A DNA stretch of 58,053 nucleotides from Clostridia bacterium. GTDB taxonomy: Bacteria > Bacillota > Clostridia > UMGS1883. The notes beneath the pieces were generated by a model. The model had not been told where the DNA came from. It made no database searches and saw nothing but the letters and a program-made list of their open reading frames with translations. Both the position numbers and the translations under genes were made by a program. Shown here piece after piece: positions 30,559 to 57,667 of the stretch (position 1 is the stretch's first letter; each line of letters begins with the position of its first letter). The stretch spans positions 1 to 58,053 of the forward strand of contig JAFTOF010000001.1 in assembly GCA_017451505.1 (NCBI GenBank), in the 5' to 3' direction.

Positions 30559-30850
30559 CATAGAAGGTGCAGGAATTGGCAAGGCAAACAGAGAGCAATT
30601 TCTTGTTCCTGAATTTGCTGACGGTTGGAATGCTGTCTTAAAGATATTAGAAAAAGAGCCCACCGCCGATGTTGTGGAAGTGGTACATGGGTATTGGATT
30701 GAAGATATTAAAGAAATCGTCCCTCTTAACGGCATCGTGCCAATAAAAGCGTTAGTAGGCTACAGATGCTCCGTGTGCAATAGGGCGGAGTTTAACAAAG
30801 AGCCGTATTGTAACTGCGGTGCAAAAATGGACGGAAAGGGTGATACATAA
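30542..30850 (+). CDS. Hypothetical phage protein with C-terminal zinc ribbon
   Basis: 102 aa. The pattern PTADVVEVVHGYW..., then YRCSVCNRAEF...YCNCGAKMDG, is widespread in clostridial phages and mobile elements; function unknown. Stop overlaps the next start (TAATG). Confidence 0.65.
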   Translation: MARYIDIEGAGIGKANREQFLVPEFADGWNAVLKILEKEPTADVVEVVHGYWIEDIKEIVPLNGIVPIKALVGYRCSVCNRAEFNKEPYCNCGAKMDGKGDT

Positions 30851-31110
30851 TGAAAAACGGGAAGAAACCTACGAGGGCACAGAAGATGCTAAATAATCAA
30901 AAACTCGGCAAAAAAGCAGGAACGAAATTTTTGCCGAAAAAGGAAGAACAATTGTAACGATGTGAGCCGTGAGGCGATACGGAGCATACGGTTGTTCTGA
31001 CGCCGTGGCATCTGAATTATGAAAACTGGCTTATAGTGAAGGACACGTCAACGGAAATGGTAGTGGTACATAGGCATACAGATAGGATAAGAACAATTGT
31101 GAAAGGGTAA
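30850..31110 (+). pseudogene. Small DUF6906-like phage gene split by a structured repeat
   Basis: The first part reads MKNGKKPTRAQKMLNNQK; the last part, in the same frame, reads HLNYENWLIVKDTSTEMVVVH and ends KG-stop at 31110. Together they resemble one small phage protein of about 50 residues. Between them lies a 101-base two-hairpin element (30902-31002) that brings two in-frame stops (first at 30955). The upstream half could still be made as a 35-aa peptide. The family name is from memory and should be treated as tentative. Confidence 0.6.
30902..31002 (+). repeat. Two-hairpin covarying element, copy A
   Basis: Runs from AACTCGGC to TTCTGACG. Stem 1 is TCGGCAAAAA with TTTTTGCCGA; stem 2 is AGAACAA with TTGTTCT. 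Copies B and C have the same layout but different, still fully paired stem sequences. Inserted in the small gene at 30850. Confidence 0.75.
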
Positions 31111-31407
31111 ATGAAAATGAACGAAACAAGAGTAACACAAGAAAGAATCAATCATCTGCTGGAAACAGCGGAACGCGAATCAACGACAGCTTTTGGAAAG
31201 TGCTTTGTTCTATCGGTCAGACTGGAGAACGGATTTGTACTGACGGAATCCAGTGCATGTGTTGATCCGAAAAACTATGATGCAGTAATAGGTCGAGAAC
31301 TTTGTTTAAAAAAGATAGAAAACAAGCTCTGGGAATTGGAAGGTTATGCTCTTCAGAAAAAATTATACGAAGGCGGTGCTTCGCATGAAAATTCAAAAGA
31401 TAGTTGA
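31111..31407 (+). CDS. Gp49-family phage protein (N4 Gp49 / Sf6 Gp66 type)
   Basis: 98 aa. RVTQERINHLL...STTAFGKCFVLSVRLENGFVLTESSACVDPKNYDAVIGRELCLKKIENKLWELEGY matches this widespread phage family of unknown function over its full length. AAAGGG site. Overlaps the next gene by 23 bases. Confidence 0.8.
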   Translation: MKMNETRVTQERINHLLETAERESTTAFGKCFVLSVRLENGFVLTESSACVDPKNYDAVIGRELCLKKIENKLWELEGYALQKKLYEGGASHENSKDS

Positions 31408-31894
31408 TATATGTAAAAAAAGCGGGCAATTGTATATAACCGAAGCGGAGGGTGCGCAGTGGATCGGGAACGGACAAGCTGTATATCCGCTTTATGACCT
31501 GCCGAAGCTGACGGCCGAGGAATTATGTACAATTTATTCTATAACAGAAGAACAGCGTGACAAAATGATACTCAATGAAAAGGATGCTTCTGAATATAAA
31601 ATAGATTTCAGTGCAATTAATGGTGACGAGGAAGCAGCGGAAGTCGTAAATATTGGACTTCATTTTGGAGGGACAAGCCTCATTATGCTTAAATGTGGCG
31701 GAGGAATCAGTTTCGTAAAGCGAATGTATCTGACGCCGTTCAAGGAGGAAGTGCAATACTGGCGAAGAACAGGCCCTATCGGTGAGTATTTCGTGGTAAC
31801 TGCAGGGATGTTTATAAAAGCAATTATAGTCCCTGAAACGGGCTTACGTGCAGATATTGCGGGAGAGCTTAAAGAAATTGTAAAAATGATATGA
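31385..31894 (+). CDS. Hypothetical phage protein
   Basis: 169 aa from ATG 31385, after AAGGCGG. Starts MKIQKIVDICKKSGQLYITEAEGAQWIGNG, a pattern seen in clostridial phage proteins of unknown role. Two beta-rich segments follow (TSLIMLKCGGGISFVKRMYL). No catalytic motif is seen. Confidence 0.6.
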   Translation: MKIQKIVDICKKSGQLYITEAEGAQWIGNGQAVYPLYDLPKLTAEELCTIYSITEEQRDKMILNEKDASEYKIDFSAINGDEEAAEVVNIGLHFGGTSLIMLKCGGGISFVKRMYLTPFKEEVQYWRRTGPIGEYFVVTAGMFIKAIIVPETGLRADIAGELKEIVKMI

Positions 31895-31910
31895 AAACAG
31901 GGTGATAACA

Positions 31911-32120
31911 ATGAAAGTGTATGAATTGATGAAAAAGCTTGCAGGGGCACCCGCAGGGGCTACGGTGGAGGTATCAAAGGTAATGACGCTCCGGGAAGTG
32001 GCAGAAAAAGAATGCGATGCTGAAAGAGCGATTGACGACAAGACCGTCTACGATGTGGGCGGAGAGGTCAAAGATATATTCCACGAACACGGAGAGACGG
32101 TTTTACTTTATTTGGAGTGA
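31911..32120 (+). CDS. Hypothetical small phage protein
   Basis: 69 aa from ATG 31911, after AGGGTGATAACA. MKVYELMKKLAGAPAGATVEVS at the start is typical of small clostridial phage proteins; acidic C-terminus. Function unknown. Confidence 0.6.
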   Translation: MKVYELMKKLAGAPAGATVEVSKVMTLREVAEKECDAERAIDDKTVYDVGGEVKDIFHEHGETVLLYLE

Positions 32121-32123
32121 TGT

Positions 32124-32150
32124 GGCGGGCGGATGATATCCGCCCCTACG
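32124..32150 (+). repeat. Palindromic intergenic repeat, copy 1
   Basis: GGCGGGCGGATGATATCCGCCCCTACG: GGGCGGAT/ATCCGCCC dyad, here between two genes. Near-identical copies at 33188, 43589 and 53344; a decayed copy at 33845. Confidence 0.85.
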
Positions 32151-32249
32151 CTCACGTGAAACGTTATATATAAATGAAAGGAAGAGTGAGAGGCTTCTTT
32201 TCATTTATATATAATAAAGAATTTAAAGCGAAGAACGGCGTAGCCGAAT

Positions 32250-32352
32250 AACTCGCAGAAAAAACAGCGAAGCGAAATTTTCTGCGAAAAAGGAAGAATG
32301 GATTTTGTGAGACGAAGCGGATGCTGAGACGTAACCTTTATCCATTCTGACG
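32250..32352 (+). repeat. Two-hairpin covarying element, copy B
   Basis: From AACTCGC to TTCTGACG. Stem 1 is TCGCAGAAAA with TTTTCTGCGA; stem 2 is AGAATGGAT with ATCCATTCT. The loop holds CAGCGAAGCGAAA. Lies just upstream of the Rep-like gene. Confidence 0.8.
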
Positions 32353-32428
32353 CACGCGTGTTCTTTGAGGGGCTCGGTAAGAGGCTAACAATTCAACCAT
32401 CGAATCTAAGAAGGGTGAGGGAAAAAGA

Positions 32429-33256
32429 ATGAAAAACGGGTATTGGGTTATAAGGACATATGTGGCAGGGAATATCGGGGAGAAGATTAAGTACTGGGTA
32501 TCAGGCAGTAAACCTGTTAGGGGTAAAAGGAGAATGCAGTCTGATATAAACAGGCTTGAAAAGAATGAAAAGCAGAGTGAGAAGAACCTGGCGAGGATTC
32601 TGAACACAAACTTTGGTATACAGGGCGGCGTGCTTGTGGGACTGGACTATTCCGACAGGGCATACAAAAAGCTCTTTGGAGCGTGCCGTGACAGGCAGGA
32701 GATTTGTGAGGCGGCAAAGCATCAGGCATCCTTGTGCCTTAGACGTGTGCAGAGAGAAGCAAAGAAGCGTGGTATAGAGGTGAAGACTGTTATAGTGACG
32801 GCAGACCTTGACGGAGAATCGAAGGAAGAGGTGAGAGTGCATCACCACATAGTGGTAAACAAGGAGGCAGCGGAGCTGTTCGGAGAGAAATGGAAGCACA
32901 GTGAAAGTGTTGACTATGAGTATCTTTACAGTGACCAAAAGGACAGAACACCTCTTGCACATTATCTGATGGAGCAGGTTAGCCATGTGCCGGGTGGCAA
33001 GGCGTACATAACAACAAGAAATCTTGAAAAGGCAAAGTGTATTGACCGCATCGCGAAAAACGGTGCGGAAATTGCTTTGCCTAAAAATTGTGAGCTTATA
33101 TACAGGAGTGCTCATGCAAGGGGGCTTAGCCAGTATTTGAGGTATCGGGTGATGGGTACAACGAACAATGACAATCCCTCCGAGGGTGGCGGGCGGATAA
33201 TATCCGCCCCTACGACGGGGGCGCTATCTGCGGAGAGCGGAGGCGATGAAGTATGA
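32429..33256 (+). CDS. HUH-type rolling-circle Rep-like protein
   Basis: 275 aa. EEVRVHHHIVVN (residues about 135-145) fits the metal-binding HUH motif, FGIQGGVLVGLDYSD may be motif 1, and HYLMEQV supplies a candidate catalytic Tyr. Such proteins nick single-stranded origins. It is the only replication-type gene seen in the prophage: no helicase, primase or polymerase was found. The last about 22 residues (GGGRIISAPTTG...) are encoded by a palindromic intergenic repeat (33188-33214), so the natural end was probably extended by repeat insertion. Confidence 0.6.
   Translation: MKNGYWVIRTYVAGNIGEKIKYWVSGSKPVRGKRRMQSDINRLEKNEKQSEKNLARILNTNFGIQGGVLVGLDYSDRAYKKLFGACRDRQEICEAAKHQASLCLRRVQREAKKRGIEVKTVIVTADLDGESKEEVRVHHHIVVNKEAAELFGEKWKHSESVDYEYLYSDQKDRTPLAHYLMEQVSHVPGGKAYITTRNLEKAKCIDRIAKNGAEIALPKNCELIYRSAHARGLSQYLRYRVMGTTNNDNPSEGGGRIISAPTTGALSAESGGDEV
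33188..33214 (+). repeat. Palindromic repeat, copy 2, inside the Rep-like coding sequence
   Basis: GGCGGGCGGATAATATCCGC plus CCCTACG, 26 of 27 bases as in copy 1. It is read in frame as part of the Rep C-terminus. Confidence 0.85.
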
Positions 33257-33552
33257 CGTTCAGAAAGTGTGAGTGCGGATGCGGAAGAGAGTTTCCTGTT
33301 ACGGCACATAACAGGAAGTATTACAGTGAATCGTGCAGGGTTATGGTATGTGCAGGAAAAAGGCAGATTGTCAAAGAGAAAAGCGTTAAATGGAATGAAT
33401 TGTCTCCCGGGGAAAGGTGGGAGGTGATGTCGCTTGCTCAGGTGGATGCAGAGTGCAAAAAGATGCACATGAGTTACGGAACGCTTCAAGGAATGTATTA
33501 TAACGGGTGTCTACCCGAGGATTTCGGGTTAAAAAGAAAGGATGAAGAATGA
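33253..33552 (+). CDS. Zinc-finger protein sharing a C-terminal module with the gene at 27020
   Basis: 99 aa. N-terminal CECGCGREFPVTAHNRKYYSESC zinc site, then MSLAQVDAECKKMHMSYGTLQ...LPEDFGL, the same 35-residue module as in the triple-ribbon protein. Start overlaps the Rep stop (ATGA). Confidence 0.65.
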   Translation: MTFRKCECGCGREFPVTAHNRKYYSESCRVMVCAGKRQIVKEKSVKWNELSPGERWEVMSLAQVDAECKKMHMSYGTLQGMYYNGCLPEDFGLKRKDEE

Positions 33553-33818
33553 TGAAAAAGCTTTTGCTGAAAAAACTGGAAGAACAAAGAAAAAGGACGG
33601 AGGTATTGCTAAAGGCGAGGAAAGAAATCATAAACGAGCTAAAGGAAGAGATAACCGGACTACGGCAAACTCTTGATATTTTGGCGGCGTTTTTGGATGC
33701 TACAGTGTCGGCAAAGGGCGAGATACGCATATCAAGGAATGAAATAAATCGGCGTGTCAAGCAGGGGTACGACATAAAATTTGATAGCGGAGAGATTGTA
33801 CTTCAAAGAAAAGAATAA
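33549..33818 (+). CDS. Coiled-coil plus HTH-like small protein
   Basis: 89 aa. Long basic/acidic helix (LLLKKLEEQRKRTEVLLKA...LKEEITGLRQTLDIL) followed by a short segment, GEIRISRNEINRRVKQGYDI, that may be DNA binding. Unknown role; last gene before the late region. ATG overlaps the previous stop. Confidence 0.55.
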   Translation: MMKKLLLKKLEEQRKRTEVLLKARKEIINELKEEITGLRQTLDILAAFLDATVSAKGEIRISRNEINRRVKQGYDIKFDSGEIVLQRKE

Positions 33819-33844
33819 CAACAAGGGAACGGCTGATGTAGGTT

Positions 33845-33870
33845 ACGGACAAATAATATCCGTGCCTACA
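33845..33870 (+). repeat. Decayed palindromic repeat
   Basis: CGGACAAATAATATCCGTGCCTACAG resembles the GGGCGGAT/ATCCGCCC family with one arm eroded. Confidence 0.55.
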
Positions 33871-33905
33871 GGCTGTTCTTTTTTTGTGTGAGCGATTGAG
33901 CGGGT

Positions 33906-33937
33906 TATGCGTACGCGGGCGTATGCGTGCGTGTGTG
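33906..33937. other. Alternating purine-pyrimidine tract
   Basis: GCGTACGCGGGCGTATGCG followed by TGCGTGTGTG: nearly unbroken alternating R-Y sequence immediately upstream of the late promoter motif. Such tracts can adopt Z-DNA under negative supercoiling. Confidence 0.5.
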
Positions 33938-33938
33938 C

Positions 33939-33968
33939 TTGACGAGTTAACGGCAACTAAATTATGAT
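33939..33968 (+). promoter_or_regulatory. Late promoter motif, copy 1 (upstream of TerS)
   Basis: TTGACG, 18 bases, TATGAT. The spacer starts with AGTTAACGGCAACT, which holds an AGTT/AACT dyad and is identical in copy 2. It sits 55 bases before the TerS start and probably drives TerS, fibre, lysis and portal genes. Confidence 0.7.
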
Positions 33969-34023
33969 TAAAAAAGAGAAGCGGTACAGAGCAAAGGTTA
34001 TTCCGACGAGGTGGTGGTGACAT

Positions 34024-34542
34024 ATGGCGAAAAATGGCGTTAAGAAATGGCTGAAAAAAGAAGGCCTCCGACAAATAACCCAGTGGGCGAGGGATGACAG
34101 CCTTAATATATCAGATATTGCGGAAAAAATGGAGATAAGCTCTGCGACATTCAGGCGGTGGAGGAATGACTATCCTGAAATTGCACAGGCCTTTGATGAA
34201 GGACGCAGAGTTGTAGATGAAAAGGTTGAAAACTCCTTCATCAAAATGTGCACAGGCTATCATGAAAAGGTTTTAAAAAAGCAAAAGGTGAAGCGTAAGG
34301 AATACGATGACAGGGGAAAAGTAACTGCCGAATATGAGGAATTTGTGGATGTGGAGGAAGAAGAATATATCCCTCCCAGCGTTGCGGCACAGAAGTTTTA
34401 TCTCCTTAACCGTATGCCCGACAGATATATTCCTGAAAATGCGGTGCTTCCGCCCGGAAACGAAGATGAAGAAGAATCAGGTGTTGTTATGCTGCCGGGT
34501 GTGGGCAATGAGGACGTGCAGGAAGCGGAAATTATTGATTAA
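34024..34542 (+). CDS. terS: Terminase small subunit-like HTH protein
   Basis: 172 aa after AGGTGGTGG. N-terminal HTH (ITQWARDDSLNISDIAEKMEISSATFRRWRNDYPEIAQAFDEGR) is typical of TerS proteins that recognise the packaging site. The C-terminal part is acidic (VDVEEEEY, NEDEEESG) with FYLLNRMPDRY. The large subunit is 19 kb away at 53393, an unusual separation, so another DNA-binding role is possible. Confidence 0.65.
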   Translation: MAKNGVKKWLKKEGLRQITQWARDDSLNISDIAEKMEISSATFRRWRNDYPEIAQAFDEGRRVVDEKVENSFIKMCTGYHEKVLKKQKVKRKEYDDRGKVTAEYEEFVDVEEEEYIPPSVAAQKFYLLNRMPDRYIPENAVLPPGNEDEEESGVVMLPGVGNEDVQEAEIID

Positions 34543-34544
34543 AT

Positions 34545-35867
34545 ATGACGAATGGAGCGATGAAAGTGTTATTTAAATTTGCGGTTCGGGGTGACAATAT
34601 AACCCCTGAGAGGGCTTATGATTTTATAGAGGGCAATAAGGGGAGCTATGAGGCTTGGTTTGAATTTTCGGAAGAATGGAAAAACCGTGTGAAAGTGTGC
34701 GTGGTTGAACAGGGTAAAAAGATATACTCTATTCCTATAACTGACGGACAATGCTTTCTTCCCGAAATGGAAAGGGGTACGGCGAGAATAGGCGTAATAG
34801 GAACACTGACGTCCAAGGACGATGAAGCAAGCACAATATCCACAAATATGAAAACTATCGGAGTTTTGGACGGAGCTGCGAACAAGGAAGCCAATTCACA
34901 GCTTAACACTGCAGCACAGGTTTGGGAAAAGTATCTTTCCGACATGGAAAATAACAGGGTTAAAGCTGAGGTGGCAGCGGGGACGGCGGCAGACGCAGCA
35001 AAAAACGCAACTACTGCCGCAGATGAAGCAGGAGAAAGTGCGGAAGAGTCCAGAAATAACGCAGAAATTACTGAAAATAGCAAAGTGGCTGCTATAAAGG
35101 CTGCGGAAGATGCCGAAAACGCTAAAACAAGTGCTGATAGTGCAATGAGAGTGGCGGAAGTGGCTGCATCGGCAGCATTAGAGGCAAAAGAAAAACTCGA
35201 AACCGCGAAACGTAATGCAGAAGAATTTTCGGCGAAGGCCTGGGAATTTTCACGAGAAGCCTTTAGTGCAGCGGCAGAAGCTAAGAACAGTGCCGATAAC
35301 GCTGCGACATCGGAGAGCAATGCGAAAGCTTCAGAAGAGGCAACGGCAGAAAGTGAAGCTAACACTGCAGAGCTGACAAGCCGTGCCGAAACGGCAGCAG
35401 AAAATGCGGAAAAGTCAGAGGTTAATTCTTCGGCTTCTGAAAAAACAGCCTCACAAGCACTTGCGGACCTGCTTGCTATGATAAATAGTGGTGATTTAAT
35501 ACTTGCTACAGAGGGCAAGCTTCCCCTTTCCGCAATCCCTGCAACGGCAACACAGGAAATATATACCGTTACAAGCGAAGATGAGCTTACAAGCCTTGTT
35601 GCTCAACGTGGCGATTTGGCAGAGCTTATCGAGGAAGTTGACGGTGAGCAGACCATCACAAAAACGTGGCAATGCCTTGGCGATGCTTCGGTGCGTGAAA
35701 ACTGGGTTGTATGGGGTACAAGCTATGCAGTACAGGCAGGCAATGCAACTACGGCAAACAATGCCTTAAACGCCAATATGATAAACAATCACCGTATCGT
35801 GGAAATGACAGAGGAAGAATTTCAGGCAGCTGTCAAGGATGAAAACACATATTATCTTGTGTATTGA
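34545..35867 (+). CDS. Fibre/upper baseplate-type protein with long Ala-rich coiled coil
   Basis: 440 aa (ATG 34545; ATG 34560 also possible). Residues about 1-100 resemble BppU-like N-terminal phage attachment domains (VLFKFAVRGDNITPERAYDF). About 120-310 is Ala/Glu-rich heptad sequence (AAGTAADAAKNATTAADEAG...) forming a trimeric shaft. The C-terminus has WQCLGDASVRENW and a short end domain (MTEEEFQAAVKDENTYYLVY). It likely links the tail to the receptor-binding protein encoded next. Confidence 0.7.
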   Translation: MTNGAMKVLFKFAVRGDNITPERAYDFIEGNKGSYEAWFEFSEEWKNRVKVCVVEQGKKIYSIPITDGQCFLPEMERGTARIGVIGTLTSKDDEASTISTNMKTIGVLDGAANKEANSQLNTAAQVWEKYLSDMENNRVKAEVAAGTAADAAKNATTAADEAGESAEESRNNAEITENSKVAAIKAAEDAENAKTSADSAMRVAEVAASAALEAKEKLETAKRNAEEFSAKAWEFSREAFSAAAEAKNSADNAATSESNAKASEEATAESEANTAELTSRAETAAENAEKSEVNSSASEKTASQALADLLAMINSGDLILATEGKLPLSAIPATATQEIYTVTSEDELTSLVAQRGDLAELIEEVDGEQTITKTWQCLGDASVRENWVVWGTSYAVQAGNATTANNALNANMINNHRIVEMTEEEFQAAVKDENTYYLVY

Positions 35868-35876
35868 GGTGGTTAA

Positions 35877-36641
35877 ATGATTTATGTAGGCGAAAACAAA
35901 TCAATACTGTGCAAGGGCGATTTCCGCCCTGCACAGCTTTACAAGGGCGATAAAAAAATAGCAGGGTACACCGTAGAAGAATTTGAAGGCACAGGCAGTG
36001 TAACGCTTGAAAATTGCTATAACGACAAGGTGTATAACGCTTATGTACACGGCAAAAACTTGCTCGATGTTAAAAAAGTTTATCCCGATTATGCGAATGA
36101 CGAAGGCGGGATAACTTATGACAACAGTGATGTTTGGAAAGTTTATGCAGTCAATATGTACGAAGGGTGGAAAGAAAATACTCAATACACCTTTAGTGCA
36201 AACTATGAGATTACGAACGCCGATAACAATAGAATAAATCTAAGCGTGCTTTATACAGACGGCACAAATAAAAATTTTTGGAACAACCTAGGTGGAACGG
36301 TTACGGGTTCTAAAAGTGGTTATGGGCGAATGACTACCGAAGCAGGAAAAACAGTACAAAAAATGATAATTGCGTTTGGTACTGGTCAAAGAACAATAGA
36401 TGTCAAACTTACCAATATGCAACTTGAAGAAGGAAGTGCTGCTACGGAGTATGAAGCTCCATTAACAGATGCGACCATAACGGTAAAATCAATGGAAAAT
36501 ACCGAAAAAACGCAGACAGTATTGTTTGAAAACGGAGAGCTGACAGCAGAGATACATACTTTTAAAGGCGTTACAGTGATTGAAATTGAATCAGATGCAG
36601 AAGCAACAACAAGCGGAAAGTATAAGAAAATGGAGGGATAG
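35877..36641 (+). CDS. Receptor-binding tail protein with carbohydrate-binding-like domain
   Basis: 254 aa, AGGTGG site. The middle part (about 55-195) is a beta-sandwich like phage carbohydrate-binding modules, ending in the typical MQLEEGSAATEYEAP motif. N-terminal YVGENKSILCKGDFRPAQLYKGD is common to phage tip proteins, and the end (VKSMENTEKTQTVLFENGEL) is short. Likely contacts the cell-wall polysaccharide of the host. Confidence 0.68.
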   Translation: MIYVGENKSILCKGDFRPAQLYKGDKKIAGYTVEEFEGTGSVTLENCYNDKVYNAYVHGKNLLDVKKVYPDYANDEGGITYDNSDVWKVYAVNMYEGWKENTQYTFSANYEITNADNNRINLSVLYTDGTNKNFWNNLGGTVTGSKSGYGRMTTEAGKTVQKMIIAFGTGQRTIDVKLTNMQLEEGSAATEYEAPLTDATITVKSMENTEKTQTVLFENGELTAEIHTFKGVTVIEIESDAEATTSGKYKKMEG

Positions 36642-36643
36642 AA

Positions 36644-37087
36644 ATGAGCGGAGTACAAATTAAAAATTCAGTATTAATTGTTTTATCGGTGGTGGGAAGC
36701 TTTATGGCTGAACACCTTGGAGGAGTTGATAAGATGCTTACAGCACTTATTGCCTTTATGGCAGTAGATTACATAACAGGCTTTGCCGTGGCTTTCGTTT
36801 TCCACAAATCCACCAAGACTGCAAACGGCAGTGCAAGCTCTCTTGCAGGGTTTAAAGGTATTGTCAAGAAAATGTGTATATTACTCCTTGTAGGTCTTGC
36901 ACACGAGCTTGATTATATAATGGGAGTTGATTATATAAGAGCTTTGGCAATACTGTTCTTTATTGGCAATGAGGGCTTGAGCGTACTTGAAAATGTCGGC
37001 TTAATGGGTGTACCGTACCCCGAATTTTTGAAGAAAGCACTCGAAGCTATCAAGGACAAAGGAAACAGGGGTGACGGCAATGAGTAA
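36644..37087 (+). CDS. Holin, phage_holin_4/Cph1 family
   Basis: 147 aa. Three to four membrane helices (VLIVLSVVGSFMAEHL, MLTALIAFMAVDYITGFAVAFVF, MCILLLVGLAHELDYI, ALAILFFIGNEGLSVLENV). The D-YITG motif and final charged tail match the family. It forms membrane lesions that release the endolysin, whose gene overlaps its 3' end. Confidence 0.9.
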   Translation: MSGVQIKNSVLIVLSVVGSFMAEHLGGVDKMLTALIAFMAVDYITGFAVAFVFHKSTKTANGSASSLAGFKGIVKKMCILLLVGLAHELDYIMGVDYIRALAILFFIGNEGLSVLENVGLMGVPYPEFLKKALEAIKDKGNRGDGNE

Positions 37088-38552
37088 TTTGCCCGAAAAA
37101 ACCATTATACCCAGTGACAGAATCCCAAGGACGTTCAGTCAGAATGTATACAAGAGCGGAAGGCTTTACACTACGGTTAACAGTTGCGTTACGTGCAGTA
37201 TAGTTAAAGTTATAGAGAGCTTGTATGCTAAAAAGAATGGGCACTATACAGAATTGTCCAAAGGTTATGCTTACGCGAGACATTCGGGGCGAAGTAATGA
37301 AGGTACGGCCATTGAGATTGTGCTTAAAAGCATGACGGAGAAAAAGACGGGTTCCGTGCCATACGAAATGTGTACGGACTACACCGAGAAACCCGAAATC
37401 TGTGAGATTATAGAGAGCAGACACGATATAGCCAAGCTTGATAAAGAGGCAGAAAAGTGGGCGATTGAGAACTGGGAATGTGTTAAAGGGAATAATGCTA
37501 AAGATTTAAAAGCAAATATCATAAGGTACGTCGACACTTATGAAGTTCCTCTTATTGGAACATTAAAACGCAGCGGTAGTGTAGACCATTGTGTTGTTAT
37601 TATCGGATATGATGATAAGTATATATATTACCACGACCATACTCTAAGCGGTGATGAGAAACGTGCGAAGTATGACAGATGGCTTAATTATTTCTATTAC
37701 ATCACTATTCCGGAGGGCGGTGCTAAAGCAGATCCGATTCCAGAAGAACCGACAGAGGAAACAAAACCCACCATAAACAAAGTACAGGAGGAAAATACTA
37801 TGGGATTTAAGCTTATTGATGTAAAGGACTTCAAGAGCTATCTTGATGGACTAAGCATTACAAGAAAGATTAATGTTGTGCAGTTACATCATACATATTC
37901 CCCTGCATACAAAGAGTTCAACGGAAAGAATCATGTTGAACTTCAGCAGGGTATGAAGACCTACCATTTAAAAACAAGAAATTATGCTGATATTGCACAG
38001 ACGTTTACCATATTCCCCGACGGCAAGATTTGCACAGGCAGGGACATAAACAAAGCCCCTGCCGGTATTTACGGAGCAAACAGTAACGGCATCTGCATCG
38101 AGTGTGTGGGCAACTTCGACAAAAATGGAGATACCATGACCGAGGCACAGAAAAATGCTATTGTTGCCGTGTGTCGCATACTGCTTGATAAGTTTGGACT
38201 TGATGCAAAAACGGGTGTGACATACCACGCATGGTGGACAAGCGGTGGCACATTCCTCGGCACATACATAGCGGGGCGGTCATACAAGACGTGTCCCGGT
38301 ACAAACTTCTTTGGCGGTAACACGAGGGAAGTGTATGAGAAAAACTTAATGCCTCTTATAGAAAACTACGGAAAGGAAAAAAAGGTTATGCTTGAAACAG
38401 GTAATGATATTGTGTGGGAGCTTATGAACGGCAAGCACAGAATTGAGATTACAGAGGTCGACAGAGCGATAAAGGCTATTGATGATGCAAAGAAAAACGC
38501 TAACTTTTCTTCTCTGTACTGGATTCTGTATAAGCTTGTGAACAATTTATAA
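37080..38552 (+). CDS. Two-domain endolysin: C39-like peptidase plus amidase
   Basis: 490 aa from ATG 37080 (8-base overlap with the holin). Residues about 20-215 form a papain/C39-like peptidase: candidate nucleophile Cys36 in VNSCVTC and His in VDHCVVIIGYDD. After a Pro/Glu-rich linker (PIPEEPTEETKP), residues about 245-430 form an Amidase_2/PGRP N-acetylmuramoyl-L-alanine amidase (VQLHHTYSP, ICIECVGNF, YHAWWTSGG, KTCPGTNF; zinc ligands His, His, Cys). A short C-terminal helical region may bind wall. An internal start at 37800 would give the amidase alone. Confidence 0.88.
   Translation: MSNLPEKTIIPSDRIPRTFSQNVYKSGRLYTTVNSCVTCSIVKVIESLYAKKNGHYTELSKGYAYARHSGRSNEGTAIEIVLKSMTEKKTGSVPYEMCTDYTEKPEICEIIESRHDIAKLDKEAEKWAIENWECVKGNNAKDLKANIIRYVDTYEVPLIGTLKRSGSVDHCVVIIGYDDKYIYYHDHTLSGDEKRAKYDRWLNYFYYITIPEGGAKADPIPEEPTEETKPTINKVQEENTMGFKLIDVKDFKSYLDGLSITRKINVVQLHHTYSPAYKEFNGKNHVELQQGMKTYHLKTRNYADIAQTFTIFPDGKICTGRDINKAPAGIYGANSNGICIECVGNFDKNGDTMTEAQKNAIVAVCRILLDKFGLDAKTGVTYHAWWTSGGTFLGTYIAGRSYKTCPGTNFFGGNTREVYEKNLMPLIENYGKEKKVMLETGNDIVWELMNGKHRIEITEVDRAIKAIDDAKKNANFSSLYWILYKLVNNL
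37785..37802 (+). promoter_or_regulatory. Internal ribosome binding site and in-frame ATG in the endolysin
   Basis: CAGGAGGA, 7 bases, ATG at 37800, in frame and exactly at the linker-amidase boundary (codon 241). It is the best Shine-Dalgarno in the gene and would yield a 250-aa amidase-only product. Confidence 0.75.
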
Positions 38553-38588
38553 GGAGAGCTTGAACAAAAGTAAACGAGGTGAAGTAAG

Positions 38589-40250
38589 TTGATTAAGAAA
38601 GAGGATATACAGGAAGCATTACAGATAATGCGTAGTTACAAGCAAGGCAAGGCAAATTTTGAAAACAGGATTGTTGAGGATGAACTTTTATGGAAGCGGT
38701 GCCACTGGCAACAGATGAGGGCAAAAAATGAGAAACATCCTGCAAGCGGTTGGCTTTTCAATTCCATTATAAACAAGCATGCTGATGCTATGGACAATTA
38801 TCCTGAAGCGATAATGATGCCCCGAGAAGAAAGTGACAAGGAAAGTGCCGAGCTTTTGTCGCAGGTTGTGCCGGTTATATTAGAGCAGAATAATTTTCGA
38901 AAGACATATTCTGATGCGTGGTGGTACAAACTGAAGCATGGTGTGACGGCTTACGGTGTGTTCTGGAACGGACAGGCAGACGAGGGCAGGGGCAATGTGG
39001 AGGTAAAGAAGCTTGATATGCTGAATCTTTTCTGGGAACCCGGAATAACGGACATTCAAAACAGCAGAAATCTCTTTATCTGTGATTTGGTAGCGGTAGA
39101 TATACTGAAAGAGCAATACCCCAATGCAAAAATATCGGGCGGGGAACGGGCTGAAATAAAAAAATATGTCTATGATGACACCTTTGACACAAGCGACAAG
39201 GCGATTGTAGTTGACTGGTACTACAAAAAGGGTGGAAAGCTCCATTTTTGCAAATTTTGCGAGGATAACATTCTCTTTGCCAGTGAAAACAAAAAAGAAT
39301 ACAGTGACGGTTGGTATGCGGACGGGCTTTACCCCGTGGTATTTGACACGCTTTATCCCGAGGATGGAACGCCGATAGGCTTCGGAATCGTTTCAATATG
39401 CCGTGATGCACAAATGAGCATAGATTTAATTGATGATGCAGCACTTGAAAATCTGAAATGGTCGTCAAAGCCAAGGTATTTTACAAAGAGTGATGCAGGT
39501 GTCAATAATAAAGAATTTATGGATTTAGAGAACTCCCTTGTTGAAGTGGAGGGGAATGTGGACGAGGAGAAGCTTCGTCAGATTAAACCTCCCGAATTTT
39601 CGCCGATTGCTCTTAATTTCCGTGCGGAAAAGATTAATGAGTTAAAAGAGACGAGCGGAAATAGTGATTTTGTACAAGGAAACACTTCTAAGGGTGTGAC
39701 AAGCGGTGCAGCTATCGCTACATTGCAGGAAGCGGGAAATAAGCTTTCGAGGGACACTGTGAATATGAGCTACGATGCATTCAAAAGTGTGATGCATATG
39801 TTGATTGAAAGGCTGAGACAGTTTTACGACATTAAAAGGACGTTCCGCATTACACGGCCACAGGGCGGTTATGAGTTTAAAAGCTTTAACAATGAAAAAA
39901 TGAAACTGCAACCAGCCGGAGAAGCTGCAGGAGTGGAGTTATTCAGAAAGCCAATTTTTGACATTGTAGTCCATGCACAGAAGAAGAATCCGTTTTCCAC
40001 GCTAAGCCAGAACGAAACTGCAGTGAATCTTTTTGACAGGGGATTTTTTAAACCCGAAATGGCACAGGAGGCACTTGCTGCACTCAAGCTGATGAGCTTT
40101 GACGGCAAGGAAGAAGTTGTGAAATATATACAGGACGGAATGACGTTGCAAAATCAATTAATGGAGATGCAAAAGCAAGTGCAGATGCCAACAGATGAAA
40201 ATGCGGTGCTTCGTCAGAACGTACGGCCGATGGTCGCTCCAACGGGATAA
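38589..40250 (+). CDS. Portal protein, podovirus/P22-like
   Basis: 553 aa from a TTG start after GAGGTGAAG. Signatures of portal proteins: W-LFNSIINKHADAMDNYPEA, GVTAYGVFWNG, a central domain (FYPVVFDTLYPEDGTPIGFG), long helices (SRDTVNMSYDAFKSVMHMLIERLRQFYDI), and a helical C-terminus. It forms the dodecameric ring for DNA passage at the capsid vertex. It lies before scaffold and capsid in the standard order. Confidence 0.85.
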   Translation: MIKKEDIQEALQIMRSYKQGKANFENRIVEDELLWKRCHWQQMRAKNEKHPASGWLFNSIINKHADAMDNYPEAIMMPREESDKESAELLSQVVPVILEQNNFRKTYSDAWWYKLKHGVTAYGVFWNGQADEGRGNVEVKKLDMLNLFWEPGITDIQNSRNLFICDLVAVDILKEQYPNAKISGGERAEIKKYVYDDTFDTSDKAIVVDWYYKKGGKLHFCKFCEDNILFASENKKEYSDGWYADGLYPVVFDTLYPEDGTPIGFGIVSICRDAQMSIDLIDDAALENLKWSSKPRYFTKSDAGVNNKEFMDLENSLVEVEGNVDEEKLRQIKPPEFSPIALNFRAEKINELKETSGNSDFVQGNTSKGVTSGAAIATLQEAGNKLSRDTVNMSYDAFKSVMHMLIERLRQFYDIKRTFRITRPQGGYEFKSFNNEKMKLQPAGEAAGVELFRKPIFDIVVHAQKKNPFSTLSQNETAVNLFDRGFFKPEMAQEALAALKLMSFDGKEEVVKYIQDGMTLQNQLMEMQKQVQMPTDENAVLRQNVRPMVAPTG

Positions 40251-40265
40251 TCAAAATAAATTTTC

Positions 40266-40295
40266 TTGACGAGTTAACGGCAACTCAATTACGAT
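40266..40295 (+). promoter_or_regulatory. Late promoter motif, copy 2 (upstream of scaffold)
   Basis: TTGACG, 18 bases, TACGAT with the same AGTTAACGGCAACT spacer core as copy 1. It lies in the only gap between portal and scaffold genes and probably boosts capsid expression. Confidence 0.7.
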
Positions 40296-40328
40296 AAAAT
40301 TAAAGAAAACAGAGAGGAGCCATTTTAT

Positions 40329-41300
40329 ATGACAGGCAATTCTATGGAACTCAATATACAGTTGTTCGCAGAAGGCGGCAGCGGTGAGGGTTCGGGCGTA
40401 AGTGCGGCAGTCGCTCAGCCGCAGACTTCGGGCGATGGCGGTGTATCCGCTACAAGTTCTCCCGCCGCCGGGGAGAAAAAGAACTCGGGATTCGGAGTGC
40501 AGAACGCGGAGGGAGATTCGTCGGCAAAGACGGGCGACCACGCAGGGTTCACCCCTACGGATGACAGTGGGGTGGGTAATGCCGGGAGTTCCGAGGAAGC
40601 TGCTCTTGATTTATTTTTTGAAAAGCATCCGGAGCTTAAAAAAGTAAATGACAAGAGAAACGACATGAAGACACAAAAAGCGATACAGAAAAGATTGTAT
40701 CAGGAAAGCAAATCCCAAAAGCCGATTAATGACATTCTTGATAAGCTGATGGTGCTTCACGGAGCAAAGAATGTGGAAGAGCTTTCAGTAAAGCTGAACA
40801 AGACACTTCCGCAAGAGTTTGCTGTGAACAGAGGTCTTGACGGTGAAGTGGGAGAAGAAATGTTTAATCTGCAATTTGAAAAAATGCAGGAAAACAGAAT
40901 GCGTGAATACTACGAGAAGCAGGCAAAGGTTGAAAGGCAGATGCAGGCATGGCGTAATGAAGCTAAGGAAATAATGGCAATCTATCCTGAGTTTAATCTG
41001 GAGGATGAGCTTCAAAATCCCGATTTTGCACGCCTTATATCAGCAACCGATGAACGTTACCGTATGCCGATGAAGCAGATATATGAGATGCTTCACCATG
41101 ATGACCTTATGAAAGCAGCGGAAAAAAGGGCGGCGGAAGCCTACTCAAAAAGTGTAAACGCAAATAAGCAGAGACCGAATGAAAACGGTACCGGAAACCA
41201 AAATGCGGTATCGGGTGCGTTTAATGTGTCGAAGCTTAGCAAAAAAGACCGTGCCGACCTTGCAAAAAGGGCAGGGCGAGGCGAAATAATTACATTGTAA
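40329..41300 (+). CDS. Scaffold-like protein
   Basis: 323 aa. Low-complexity Gly/Ser/Ala N-terminus, then a helical, charged body (FEKHPELKKVNDKRNDMKTQ, FNLQFEKMQENRMREYYEKQAKVE) and basic C-terminus (KLSKKDRADLAKRAGRGEIITL), the usual design of scaffolds just upstream of the major capsid gene. Residues about 68-77 (GDHAGFTPTD) come from an in-frame intergenic repeat (40531-40559). Confidence 0.75.
   Translation: MTGNSMELNIQLFAEGGSGEGSGVSAAVAQPQTSGDGGVSATSSPAAGEKKNSGFGVQNAEGDSSAKTGDHAGFTPTDDSGVGNAGSSEEAALDLFFEKHPELKKVNDKRNDMKTQKAIQKRLYQESKSQKPINDILDKLMVLHGAKNVEELSVKLNKTLPQEFAVNRGLDGEVGEEMFNLQFEKMQENRMREYYEKQAKVERQMQAWRNEAKEIMAIYPEFNLEDELQNPDFARLISATDERYRMPMKQIYEMLHHDDLMKAAEKRAAEAYSKSVNANKQRPNENGTGNQNAVSGAFNVSKLSKKDRADLAKRAGRGEIITL
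40531..40559 (+). repeat. Intergenic-type palindrome inside the scaffold gene
   Basis: GGGCGACCACGCAGGGTTCA followed by CCCCTACGG. The GGGCGA...TCRCCCC dyad and CCCCTACG end are those of clostridial intergenic repeats; it is read in frame. Confidence 0.6.
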
Positions 41301-41327
41301 GTTTAAAACGAATGGAGTGAAAAATTA

Positions 41328-42647
41328 ATGTTTAAGTTTAATTTGCAGCATTTCGCAGCAGGTGATGCAGTACATACCACTGACGGTATGGCAAGCAATG
41401 CCAACGGAAATGTAACCCCTTATGGGGAAAGCGGCGGACTTAGTGCCGAAATGAAAACGTATTATTCCGACTTTCTTATTGATATGGCGGAACCCAAGCT
41501 GGTACATGACCAGTTCGGTCAGAAGGTACCGATTCCCAAAAATAAGGGAAAGGTTGTTGAATTCAGAAAATATGATCCCCTTCCCAAGATGACTACGCCT
41601 CTTGTTGAAGGTGTAACCCCCAAAGGACAGAAAATGGACATGGGCGTTATCACGGCAGAAGTTAAACAGTACGGCGGCTTTATTGAGCTTTCGGACGTGC
41701 TTCTTCTTACTGCGATTGATAATAACCTTGTGCAGGCAACCAAGCTTCTTGGCGGTCAGGCAGGAAGAACTCTTGACACTATTACAAGAGAAGTTCTCTG
41801 CGGCGGTACAAACGTTCAGTTTGCAGAGGGACAGGTTGCATCAAGAAGCCTTCTTGCAGGCGGAAATGAATCGGGCAATCATTATCTTACAGTTGACGGC
41901 GTGAGACGAGCTGTACGCTACCTTAAGAAGATGAATGCGGAAACGATTAACGGAAGCTATGTGGGTATTATTCACCCCGATACTGCTTACGACCTTATGA
42001 GCGATCCTAAATGGATTAATGTTAAGACATATTCCGACCCTGAGGGCATTTACCAGGGCGAAATCGGTAAGATTGAGAATGTAAGATTTGTTGAAAGCTC
42101 CGAAGCAAAGGTTATTCACGCGGAAGACCTCTCTGCCGAAAGCAGAAATCTTACAGTTTCTTCCTACAGTACACTTACTTCTGCAGGCAAGGCGACACAT
42201 GGAGAAGGAACCTTGTACAAGCTTGTCGTAGAGGAGTCTCTTACCGAGGAAGATGCAGCAAGACTTGTGGATGCAATCATTCAACTTGGTGTAGAAGATA
42301 GCATCGAGGTATTGAGTGTGGCCGGTGTTGATGTAGCAGGTAACGCCCTCTATCTTTATGAAGAACCTATCAATACTCCCTCCGAGGGTGACATTTTGTA
42401 CCCCGGTGAAGCAGGATTTAAGGGCTGTGACGTTTATGCAACCCTTATTATCGGTGATAATGCTTACGGTACAACAGAAATCTCAGGCGGCGGTTTGCAG
42501 CATATTGTTAAGCAGCTTGGTTCTGCAGGAACGGCAGACCCCCTCAATCAGAGAGCTACAGCAGGTTGGTCCGCTACAAAGGCTGCCGTGAGACTTGTGG
42601 AACCTTATATGGTTCGTATAGAAACCGCAAGCACATTCGGTAATTAA
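41328..42647 (+). CDS. Major capsid protein, N4-gp56 family
   Basis: 439 aa. PIPKNKGKVVEFRKYDPLPKMTTPLVEGVTPKG, VKQYGGFIELSDVLLL, AGRTLDTITREVLCGGTNVQFAEG and GIIHPDTAYDLMSDP are hallmarks of the N4-gp56-type HK97-fold capsid family. The end (RATAGWSATKAAVRLVEPYMVRIETAS) is also typical. Part of the structural operon, with AGTGAAAAATTA site. Supports a short-tailed phage lineage. Confidence 0.92.
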   Translation: MFKFNLQHFAAGDAVHTTDGMASNANGNVTPYGESGGLSAEMKTYYSDFLIDMAEPKLVHDQFGQKVPIPKNKGKVVEFRKYDPLPKMTTPLVEGVTPKGQKMDMGVITAEVKQYGGFIELSDVLLLTAIDNNLVQATKLLGGQAGRTLDTITREVLCGGTNVQFAEGQVASRSLLAGGNESGNHYLTVDGVRRAVRYLKKMNAETINGSYVGIIHPDTAYDLMSDPKWINVKTYSDPEGIYQGEIGKIENVRFVESSEAKVIHAEDLSAESRNLTVSSYSTLTSAGKATHGEGTLYKLVVEESLTEEDAARLVDAIIQLGVEDSIEVLSVAGVDVAGNALYLYEEPINTPSEGDILYPGEAGFKGCDVYATLIIGDNAYGTTEISGGGLQHIVKQLGSAGTADPLNQRATAGWSATKAAVRLVEPYMVRIETASTFGN

Positions 42648-42664
42648 TTTAGGGAGGTTTTAAA

Positions 42665-42949
42665 ATGGCAACTAAAAACACTTCGGAAAAAACAAAAACA
42701 AAGGCAAAGGTTGTTGATGAAAATTCGCTGGTGGAAATTGAGCTTTTCCGTGATAATAAAGACTACAAAGACAATGTTTTTGTAGCAGTAAACGGAGAAA
42801 GCTGTGTAATTGCCCGCGGTAAAAAGGTAAAAATCAAGAAAAAGTTTGCCGATGTAATTGCTCTTTCCATGAAGCAGGATGTAAAGACTGCAAGAATGAT
42901 GGACGAAAAGTCTGATGAGTTCATGGCAGAAGCACAGACAAAACTGTGA
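42665..42949 (+). CDS. Small protein downstream of capsid
   Basis: 94 aa after GGGAGG. Lys-rich N-terminus, then a compact domain (LVEIELFRDNKDYKDNVFVAVNGESCVIARGKKVKIKKKFADVI) of the type often found right after phage capsid genes. Possibly a head decoration or completion protein; unproven. Confidence 0.6.
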   Translation: MATKNTSEKTKTKAKVVDENSLVEIELFRDNKDYKDNVFVAVNGESCVIARGKKVKIKKKFADVIALSMKQDVKTARMMDEKSDEFMAEAQTKL

Positions 42950-42955
42950 TAAATT

Positions 42956-43012
42956 AAAAAAAGACCGCAGCGGCGGTGCCAATAAGCGGCACGGTGCCGT
43001 TGCGGTCTTTTT
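42956..43012 (+). terminator. Strong terminator after the capsid block
   Basis: GACCGCAGCGGCGGTGCC pairs with GGCACGGTGCCGTTGCGGTC (one bulged region), then TTTTT. It would reduce transcription past the capsid genes. Confidence 0.85.
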
Positions 43013-43027
43013 GTTAAGGTGATGAAA

Positions 43028-43369
43028 ATGAAAGTTTATGAAGCTATAGAAAGGGCACAAAAGGGCGGATGTGCAAGCAATACGCCTAAGGATGTGCTGA
43101 TGGATGCCGTCAAAAGGCTCGAAAAACAGATTTCCGACAAGGCGGAAATCTTGCTTAGTGACATTGATGACAACACGGTTCTTTTAGCTTGTGGCGGAGG
43201 CGTTGCCGAAGGGTATGATGATATGTATGAAGCGTTCTTAAAACGTGAGGCAAGCAGGTATTGTGAAGCGTGGGAGAATTATGGGAATTACGATGCTGTA
43301 TTTGCTATAAGATACCGTGAACTGTGTAAGGAAATTATAAGAAACAGGAAGCCTAAGAGGTGGAATTAA
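43028..43369 (+). CDS. Candidate head-tail connector protein
   Basis: 113 aa from ATG 43028 with AAGGTG ahead. Largely helical (MKVYEAIERAQKGGCASNTP, LKREASRYCEAWENYGNYDAVF), size and place typical of head-tail connectors. No direct family signature, so the role is inferred from position. Confidence 0.5.
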   Translation: MKVYEAIERAQKGGCASNTPKDVLMDAVKRLEKQISDKAEILLSDIDDNTVLLACGGGVAEGYDDMYEAFLKREASRYCEAWENYGNYDAVFAIRYRELCKEIIRNRKPKRWN

Positions 43370-43370
43370 A

Positions 43371-43529
43371 ATGAACGAAAATGAAATAATGGCAGAGCAG
43401 GTTTTATTTGCCGGAGGTAAGAGGCTGGATGAGGTTATAAGTGAGCTTAAGAAAGCAAATTCGACTTTACAGGCGAACATAAACGCTCTTACAAACAGAG
43501 TGAAAGCTCTGGAGGATATGGAGGCGTAG
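43371..43529 (+). CDS. Small coiled-coil protein
   Basis: 52 aa: EIMAEQVLFAGGKRLDEVISELKK then LQANINALTNRVKALEDMEA, a predicted coiled coil. Directly follows the preceding gene, with AGAGGTGG site. Unknown; possibly a fibre or head-tail accessory. Confidence 0.55.
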   Translation: MNENEIMAEQVLFAGGKRLDEVISELKKANSTLQANINALTNRVKALEDMEA

Positions 43530-43537
43530 CGGAGTGC

Positions 43538-43580
43538 TGAGTGAGATTCTTCGACTCCACTTCGTTTCACTCAGAATGAC
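43538..43580 (+). repeat. TCATTCTGAG-family repeat in the prophage
   Basis: CTGAGTGAGATTCTTCGACT to CACTCAGAATGAC; TGAGTGA/TCACTCA dyad. Same family as the host copy at 4048-4098. Confidence 0.7.
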
Positions 43581-43588
43581 GGGGAGTA

Positions 43589-43615
43589 GGCGGGCGGATG
43601 ATATCCGCCCCTACG
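43589..43615 (+). repeat. Palindromic repeat, copy 3
   Basis: Identical to copy 1 at 32124 over 27 bases; 8 bases after the preceding repeat. Confidence 0.85.
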
Positions 43616-43632
43616 AGTGAATGCGATAAAGA

Positions 43633-43753
43633 AACTCGGCGAAAAAACAGCGAATGCGAAATTTTCGCCGAAAGAGGAAGAATGCACGTTGCGAGTGGAG
43701 AAAGAATGCCTCTGCGTGAGACTTTCAAAACGGAGCCTGCGTGTATTCTGACG
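43633..43753 (+). repeat. Two-hairpin covarying element, copy C
   Basis: From AACTCGGCG to TTCTGACG. Stem 1 is TCGGCGAAAA with TTTTCGCCGA; stem 2 is AGAATGCACG with CGTGTATTCT (one G-U). Its internal part is about 20 bases longer than in A and B. With the two repeats just before it, it fills the 243-base gap at 43530-43772. Confidence 0.8.
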
Positions 43754-43772: not shown

Positions 43773-44765
43773 ATGCAGACATTTAATGATGAGAAAAAGA
43801 AAAGGGAAAACGGTGTAGCACAGCCTGTGACAACCGAGCAGGTGCAGACACAGCTTGCAAACAAGGCGAATCCTACAGTAACAGGTGGTGCGGCAGTTCC
43901 TACGGTTGCACCGAAGACATCAGCTATTCCCGGGGTAAAGGTGCATAGCAACGCACCTGCAATGATAGGAAACTATGCCTTTGATACCGACTTTATGGCC
44001 GAAAGGCAAAAAGCCGAAGCGGAGGGCGATTACGGTAAGGCGGCACTTATGGAGTTTTACAGAAATCAGAAGCTGGGATATATGACTTCTCCATACCGCA
44101 CTACTGATGTATATAATTATACAGACCCATACCGGGGAGAGCTTGACCGTATGCAGGAGGATATGCAAAATCGTGAAAAATTCAGCTATGATTATCGTGA
44201 TGACGAGCAGTACAAGGCAATAAAGAGGTTGAAAGAGAAAGAGGCACAGGACGCGTTTGACGACGCTTACGGACGGCTTTCAGCACAGTTTGACGGTGAC
44301 ATACCCGTAAATATGATGAATAAGCTCTATGACACGAAAGCGGATATTATAGATTCCGCAGACAGTTATATTCCACAACTTCAACAGTTGGCATATTCCA
44401 TGTATATGGATGAGGGTGACATGATGATGCGAAATTATGCACTCATGCAGGAGAGAGCCAATCAGGATTATAACAGGTGGGCGGAGAAACGTGACCTGCA
44501 CGTGTCAGGACTGGATAATAAGTATGGCAGAGATGCAAGCGAGAAAGCGTACAACGAGGATATCAGAAGGTATAATCAGGAATACGCAGATAAGAGAGCG
44601 GATATTGAGTATGAGAGAGACAACAATGAACAGCAGAGGACTACGGGGCTTACACAGACAGATTACGAGAATCGTTATCAGGCAACGCTTGCGATTATGG
44701 AAAGTGAGGGCGTAAGCTTTGACGAAGCATGGAAACGTGCTTCGGGATATGTGCCGAAATTTTAA
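43773..44765 (+). CDS. Tyr/Asp/Arg-rich internal structural protein, unknown
   Basis: 330 aa, AAAGGAAGTG site. Pro/Thr/Val-rich N-terminus, then a long charged helical region (DYRDDEQYKAIKRLKEKEAQDAFDD, EDIRRYNQEYADKRADIEYERD). The end (ATLAIMESEGVSFDEAWKRASGYVPKF) is a small helical motif. Sits just before the giant protein, so a virion-internal or tail protein is likely. No family recognised. Confidence 0.6.
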   Translation: MQTFNDEKKKRENGVAQPVTTEQVQTQLANKANPTVTGGAAVPTVAPKTSAIPGVKVHSNAPAMIGNYAFDTDFMAERQKAEAEGDYGKAALMEFYRNQKLGYMTSPYRTTDVYNYTDPYRGELDRMQEDMQNREKFSYDYRDDEQYKAIKRLKEKEAQDAFDDAYGRLSAQFDGDIPVNMMNKLYDTKADIIDSADSYIPQLQQLAYSMYMDEGDMMMRNYALMQERANQDYNRWAEKRDLHVSGLDNKYGRDASEKAYNEDIRRYNQEYADKRADIEYERDNNEQQRTTGLTQTDYENRYQATLAIMESEGVSFDEAWKRASGYVPKF

Positions 44766-57591: not shown

Positions 57592-57637
57592 TGGTGAGCC
57601 ATCGGAGATTCGAACCCCGGACAACTTGATTAAAAGT
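57592..57637 (-). other. attR: 46-bp core inside tRNA-Lys
   Basis: Identical to attL (19775-19820). The phage brought this copy of the tRNA 3' part, so the gene remains whole. Confidence 0.95.
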
Positions 57638-57667
57638 CAAGTGCTCTGCCGACTGAGCTAATGGCCC
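57592..57667 (-). tRNA. tRNA-Lys(TTT)
   Basis: 76 bases with encoded CCA. Acceptor GGGCCAT/ATGGCTC (one G-U), anticodon loop CTTTTAA with TTT, T-loop TTCGAAT. Its 3' 46 bases are the phage att core. Confidence 0.95.

Follow-up and report, generated by a model that had tools for sequence, protein, structure and literature searches.

The palindromic repeats closest in kind to the element described here are the CGTC-tagged REPs, which are 20 to 40 bp long and have a single stem of 8 to 9 bp with A-T as its first two pairs, a loop of 4 to 5 nt, a CGTC tag (or TGTC or CCTC), a tail that is mostly CCA, and no dedicated transposase (Di Nocera et al. 2013, PMC3733652). They include dRS3 of Neisseria and RPE-4 and RPE-6 of Rickettsia; no Firmicutes with CGTC REPs are listed in that paper, nor is a junction with the CCA end of tRNA genes mentioned (PMC3733652). 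In REP/RAYT systems (GTAG REPs and the Y1 HUH transposase TnpA-REP), dispersed palindromes of fixed polarity carry an unpaired conserved tetranucleotide at the foot. MITEs derived from IS200/IS605 have two subterminal hairpins, no inverted terminal repeats, and a fixed orientation relative to the target, and a tRNA-end target is atypical for such elements. Elements of the IS110/Piv (bridge-RNA) group have been linked to dRS3 of Neisseria. Streptococcal BOX-type repeats, to which the present element is likened by description only, are small, intergenic, and modular and have covarying stems.

The window, the whole stretch of 58,053 nucleotides of Clostridia DNA that was analyzed, is a P22-like prophage region with genes for the portal, the major head protein, both terminase subunits, a holin, an endolysin, and a replication initiation protein. 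Three copies of a hairpin repeat reported in a first-pass annotation were located, all on the plus strand (Table 1). The ends AACTCG and TTCTGACG were common to all three copies in a MAFFT alignment, as that annotation had reported. The linker was also shared by the three, with the variant AAAGAGGAAGAA in copy 3, whereas the loop CAGCGAA, which had been assigned to every copy, was present in copies 2 and 3 and was replaced by CAGGAA in copy 1. Both of the hairpins (H1 and H2) that had been described folded in each copy, and MFE z-scores for copies 1 to 3 were -4.7, -4.0, and -4.2 on the plus strand and weaker on the minus strand. The core GAAATTTTNNNNGAAANAGGAAGAA occurred exactly three times, and a pattern with up to 3 mismatches matched those three places only, compared to 0.03 matches expected by chance from shuffles. 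Copy 3 precedes a gene of the phage structural region, and neither a tRNA gene nor CCA adjoins any of the three copies. The region of copy 2 is considered noncoding because the homologous regions of L071, a genome of the same genus, and L075, a viral contig, are not open; a small ORF around this copy (...ARVFFEGLGKRLTIQPSNLRRV) was rejected on the same grounds. Other repeats were observed nearby: GGCGGGCGGATGATATCCGCCCCTAC is present at 32120-32147 and 43590-43617, just upstream of copies 2 and 3, with GATTCTTCGACTCCACTTCGTTTCACTCAGAATGACG additionally near copy 3, and a near-perfect long inverted repeat (ATATATAAATGAAAGGAAGA ... TCTTTTCATTTATATAT) lies between two genes at 32164-32215, upstream of copy 2.

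Table 1. Element copies and adjoining features in the window
Feature	Position	Strand	Basis
Element copy 1, short form, 101 nt, within DUF6906 gene	30902..31002	+	Alignment, fold, covariation
Copy 1 hairpin H1 (TCGGCAAAAA ... TTTTTGCCGA)	30905..30937	+	Fold, pairs
Copy 1 linker AAAAGGA, purine-rich, joining H1 to H2	30938..30944	+	Sequence
Copy 1 hairpin H2 (AGAACAATTGTA ... TACGGTTGTTCT)	30945..30998	+	Fold, pairs
Copy 1 terminal GACG tag (CGTC on other strand)	30999..31002	+	Sequence; kept in 95/113 long-form copies
Element copy 2, 103 nt, noncoding DNA upstream of replication initiation gene	32250..32352	+	Alignment, fold
Element copy 3, 121 nt, H2 extended, directly upstream of gene at 43773	43633..43753	+	Alignment, fold
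DUF6906 gene, 5' part (MKNGKKPTRAQKMLNNQ...)	30850..30901	+	PF21847 match with halves joined
DUF6906 gene, 3' part (...WHLNYENWLIVKDTSTEMVVVHRHTDRIRTIVKG*), same frame as 5' part	31003..31110	+	PF21847; intact homologues L075:3020-3175, L071
Phage replication initiation protein, context beside copy 2, outside element	32429..33256	+	phrog_3584, E=3.3e-38; weak sub-cutoff match to REP_ORF2-G2P

A covariance model built from the three window copies retrieved further short copies from genomes of the same genus and from one viral contig. Across 12 distinct short copies, 98.8% of cells were paired and 12 of 20 pairs were altered on both sides, which bore out the compensatory stem changes first noted in the window. 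Double changes affected 53 cells, compared to 17.4 in shuffles, and the covariation score was reached by 0 of 500 shuffles; sliding the partners by 1 to 3 columns reduced pairing to 38 to 51%. Stem 1 of these copies contained only Watson-Crick pairs, with no G-U pair and no one-sided change, RNAalifold recovered the identical two-hairpin structure, and the GACG end was present in 12/12. The covariation persisted in 113 copies of a long form, described below, with double-sided change in 20 of 21 pairs and a score that was likewise reached by none of 500 shuffles. Selection on structure, as had been suggested, was therefore supported in both short and long copies. Hairpins and A/T-rich stems are common in the genome to which the window belongs, and the copies might be put down to chance hairpins or look-alike intrinsic terminators. 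This explanation, which retains next to no probability, was refuted by the three core matches against 0.03 expected, by the common ends and linker, by covariation exceeding all shuffles and slid controls, and by model scores of up to 184 bits elsewhere.

Mobility of the element within phage was indicated by copy 1, which separates two in-frame halves of a phage DUF6906 gene. When joined, the halves matched PF21847 over nearly the full length (E=2.9e-18), and reading through the copy encountered two in-frame stops inside the element. The gene is intact in L071 and in L075, whose replication protein is 74% identical to that of the window. An element 88.6% identical to copy 1 is present in L075 at another locus, upstream of the terminase small-subunit gene. 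The intact gene in both relatives and the copy elsewhere in L075 indicated that copy 1 is an insertion and that the element occupies differing sites. The insertion at copy 1 is a multiple of three and the DUF6906 frame is kept, but translational bypass or an intron was rejected because copies 2 and 3 lie outside genes and the element carries stops. Strict DNA patterns mostly had no match in viral contigs, two loose matches there (L048 and L049) were judged not to be elements, and searches of annotated phages and plasmids found no match. The proposal of a mobile palindrome-type element was thus supported by the split gene with its intact, empty-site homologue, by the copy elsewhere in a related virus, and by an empty tRNA-end site in sister genomes (see below). 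The element did not reach the gathering threshold of any Rfam 15 family, a check proposed in the first-pass annotation, and the repeat family was not found in the literature searched; the text of a study of candidate structured RNAs from human microbiomes (PMC8040213) mentions no tRNA-end element. Overall, the element is real, mobile, and outside Rfam.

The family to which the window copies belong, as short forms, is ∼160 nt long and has the order H1, AAAGGAGGA, H2, and GACG. The second half of the long form is as in the short form, while H1 is longer and has a highly conserved interior (TAGCGACAGYGARCCGTYGYGAGGGCG...GAGCCGAGCG); alignment of 11 long-form copies detected 50 invariant columns. 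Long and short forms have H2, the linker, and GACG in common, and genome G020 contains both, with H2 sequences that are almost the same; a short-form model, R2, detected a long-form copy (L087) with an E value of 1.3e-10. Searching the phylum with R2 returned only the genome of the window, and finding relatives took a long-form model, R3, built from the 11-copy alignment. The proposed covariance-model search of Clostridia genomes yielded, with R3, relatives in 64 of 391 sampled Clostridia-class genomes (54 of 317 high-quality genomes and 48 of 222 genera; E<=1e-6), with scores of up to 184 bits in other genomes. Copy numbers per genome are lower bounds, since at most seven candidates per genome were scored. 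Relatives on named contigs belong to Clostridia/Oscillospiraceae metagenome-assembled genomes. The element first noticed in the window is a short version within a larger family that is associated with tRNA ends. Composite arrangements were also seen: one genome (G002, L054-L070) holds many copies of a mosaic repeat of >300 bp with a related two-hairpin module (CCCCGCAAAACGGCGAAGCCGATTTTGTGGGG-AAAAGGAG-...-GACGACG), and L149, L155, and L205 have two or three long-form elements head-to-tail, with spacers of ∼30 to 45 nt and with several starting with TGG.

The surroundings of 113 long-form copies, from 79 fetched loci and the loci obtained earlier, were examined in element orientation with ARAGORN and a script. 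In 41/113 copies, a tRNA or tmRNA gene lay directly against the last base of GACG, with its CCA end (read as the complement) at a gap of 0 nt; this fraction may be inflated because the copies examined were the best-scoring ones. A further four lay 1 nt from CCA, and another four were separated from it by 3 nt. All tRNA-end copies were antisense, and no sense-oriented copy was found at a tRNA 3' end, so that the junction on the tRNA strand reads tRNA...CCA followed immediately by CGTC-hairpin-hairpin. The 41 exact junctions involved 14 tRNA types (Pro, Met, Ala, Gln, Glu, Leu, Lys, Thr, Arg, Cys, Asp, Val, Gly, and Asn) and tmRNA, giving 15 gene types, in 25 genomes and 13 families. TGG followed GACG directly in 64/113 copies, compared to a background of 0.8%, and the complement of the T-loop started 19 nt downstream in 36 copies. 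The sense-strand end was GACG in 95 of the 113 copies and GACA in 5. At L092 (tmRNA) and L033 (the genome of the window), the element instead directly adjoins a tmRNA or tRNA-like gene on its 5' side. What is new and surprising in these results is the junction with tRNA ends, which is absent from the short forms of the window.

Unoccupied sites, proposed as a check in the first-pass annotation, were seen both at DUF6906 and at the CCA of tRNA-Lys. An Arg-His-Gln-Lys tRNA operon in genome G525 carries an element at the Lys CCA, followed directly by CGTC. The orthologous operons of G502 and G567 (91% and 85% identical) pass from CCA directly into an intrinsic terminator with no element, and the tRNA-Lys of the window (57592-57667) has its own terminator only and no element. 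At the far end, the native terminator is followed immediately by the TGG that opens the unit in several subfamilies (TGGAAAAGCCGAACGGTTTAGATG..., TGGTGCGAGTGTTCTTACAGGACTTG...), which indicated that on the tRNA strand the unit is CGTC ... CCA, placed after CCA. The far-end CCA, which lies against the native terminator, represents either a 3-bp duplication or a CCA borne by the element; the window copies have no TGG start.

These data bear on whether the copies are kept for a function as a structured RNA or 3' trailer, with the hairpins and the T-rich linker (TCCTCCTTTT on the tRNA strand) serving as a terminator or processing signal. The structure is strongly conserved, as is the sequence of H1 (50 invariant columns in 11 copies), and copies follow the last tRNA of operons. 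G-T pairs exceeded A-C mismatches in stems by ∼2:1 (122 to 52 overall and 31:14 in stem 1) in an alignment fitted to a sense-strand model. The excess leans toward a sense-strand RNA, a weak sign that RNA may matter, and in the same measure it speaks for the phage or host RNA that was offered as one reading of the window copies. However, an ordinary terminator occupies the same place in the sister genomes and at the window tRNA-Lys, copies are also present inside a phage gene and elsewhere, and termination requires neither an exact 0-nt spacing nor 60 nt of conserved H1 interior. A retained functional RNA was consequently judged unlikely.

Fragments of tRNA genes were detected beside some elements. 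The far end repeats nine bases of the tRNA end in L230 and 25 in L152, and several loci have an extra 18-nt tRNA 3' fragment next to the element and an inverted T-arm further away. In six loci (L137, L144, L210, L170, L139, and L193), 18-nt fragments (tRNA positions 59-76) lie directly beside long-form elements; an intact copy of the matching tRNA adjoins, and there is a hairpin-rich spacer of ∼150 nt, possibly another mobile element. At L020 (1165-1640), tRNA-Leu is followed by two tandem units of ∼190 bp, each containing an inverted T-arm, a short-form element, an 18-nt tRNA-Leu 3' fragment, and a terminator that differs between the units. The 18-nt fragments and the inverted T-arm fit either site-specific recombination in the T-loop or tRNA-primed copying.

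Under the former, a tyrosine recombinase with a T-arm core would have mediated site-specific integration at tRNA genes, leaving the copies as remnants or mini-elements whose hairpins would be recombinase-binding arms. The duplicated tRNA 3' ends start in the T-loop, an inverted T-arm is present on the other side, tandem units follow an intact tRNA in L020, and 25 nt of a tRNA 3' end are duplicated around L152. Most exact-junction copies nevertheless are missing a far-side tRNA 3' duplication, 15 gene types are used although integrases are usually specific for one, and the units contain no integrase, making this origin quite unlikely.

Under the latter, the CCA 3'-OH of a mature tRNA would prime copying from GACG by a template-switching retroelement, and the tRNA-CCA-cDNA would then be integrated. 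Such priming would account for junctions at 0 nt from the mature CCA, as seen for tmRNA and 14 tRNA types, the 5'-end junctions at L033 and L092 are expected from end-to-end template switching, and the 18-nt fragments (nt 59 to 76) beside several copies have the length of a retroviral primer-binding site. T-loop att-site duplication, however, explains these fragments equally. RVT_1 was detected in 8/22 genomes, with no match in the copy-rich, near-complete genomes G487, G297, G364, G688, and G027 and no element near the reverse transcriptase loci that were found; a link between the element and reverse transcriptase was rejected on both counts. A tRNA-primed retroelement was thus considered very unlikely. 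A small probability, and no higher, is given to an element that recognizes the mature 3' CCA of tmRNA and of tRNAs of any type, with this RNA as primer or acceptor, inserts there, and uses a non-RVT_1 or phage-supplied polymerase; if true, it would be the first bacterial element of a retro type that is primed by tRNA or directed to tRNA ends.

An association with IS200/IS605-type transposases, suggested when the repeat was first noted, was not found. No copy was beside a Y1 gene, neither TnpA nor TnpB was beside copies, and no Y1 match was obtained in G020 or G007, both of which carry copies. The Y1 transposase in the genome of the window is flanked by a palindrome other than the element. The other palindromes at this gene and the lack of matches in G020 and G007 led to rejection of a Y1/RAYT link, and no transposase linked to a copy was found. 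The locus concerned (L042, contig C20, ∼1380-2270) has a RAYT-like Y1 gene flanked by ACACATTGGGGACTGTCCCCAATGTGT, an ordinary REP/RAYT pair distinct from the element.

Like CGTC REPs, the element has at one end a hairpin with CGTC (GACG on its sense strand) immediately at its foot, and both are dispersed, sometimes inside genes, with no linked transposase; the CCA at the other end in several subfamilies may correspond to the CCA tail of those repeats. In 68/113 long copies, GACG is immediately preceded by a hairpin with 7 pairs or more, compared to 2.7% of control positions; this terminal hairpin, present in most long copies and absent from the window copies, typically has 9 pairs and a 4-nt loop, as in CGTC REPs. 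Unlike CGTC REPs, the element is ∼100 to 200 nt long (101 to 121 in the window and ∼160 in relatives) rather than 20 to 40, has two differing hairpins, a purine linker that is conserved, and an H1 whose interior is highly conserved, begins its stems with G-C rather than A-T pairs, resides in Clostridia, and forms the junction with tRNA CCA ends. It is closest in kind to the CGTC-tagged REPs yet is not classed with them, as size and architecture differ. The palindrome with an unpaired conserved tetranucleotide, the dispersal, and the fixed polarity are shared with REP/RAYT, but the GTAG tag is missing and no RAYT gene adjoins copies. The two subterminal hairpins, the lack of inverted terminal repeats, and the fixed orientation relative to the target are shared with IS200/IS605-derived MITEs, but there is no conserved TTAC/TTAT-like target; the Y1 genes in the genome of the window have other ends, and no IS200/IS605 parent with matching ends was found.

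The element has fixed ends, covarying hairpins, a dispersed distribution, a fixed orientation, and a preferred GACG/CCA junction. We favor, with moderate confidence, a gene-less, nonautonomous mobile palindromic element that is moved by a trans-acting enzyme at CCA, the phage copies being short forms of the ∼160-nt Clostridia family. Because of the hairpin at GACG and the likeness to CGTC REPs in tag, stems, loops, the lack of a transposase of their own, and perhaps the CCA tail, DNA strand transfer at CCA, catalyzed in trans, is the preferred mechanism. The putative enzyme would recognize the terminal hairpin with its CGTC foot, probably on single-stranded DNA, and the frequency of hairpins at GACG relative to control positions points to this object. 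Recognition would be analogous to the hairpin-plus-tetranucleotide mode of REP/RAYT and IS200/IS605, and the enzyme would join the element 3' of CCA. Ends of tRNA genes may be favored because the spacing between CCA and the conserved T-arm is constant there, and the phage insertions may be less specific events that carry the element between hosts. The exactness of the junction at any tRNA type could also stem from an RNA-level event.

A repeat family is thus present in about one-sixth of the sampled Clostridia-class genomes and is positioned to the exact base at tRNA and tmRNA gene ends. The concrete sites, the empty-site pair, and the phage carrier offer starting points in a search for the enzyme responsible for repeats of the CGTC type, a question that dates from 2013. 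The element can reshape the 3' regions of tRNA genes, with native terminators shifted by ∼200 bp, and may thereby affect tRNA expression in gut bacteria.
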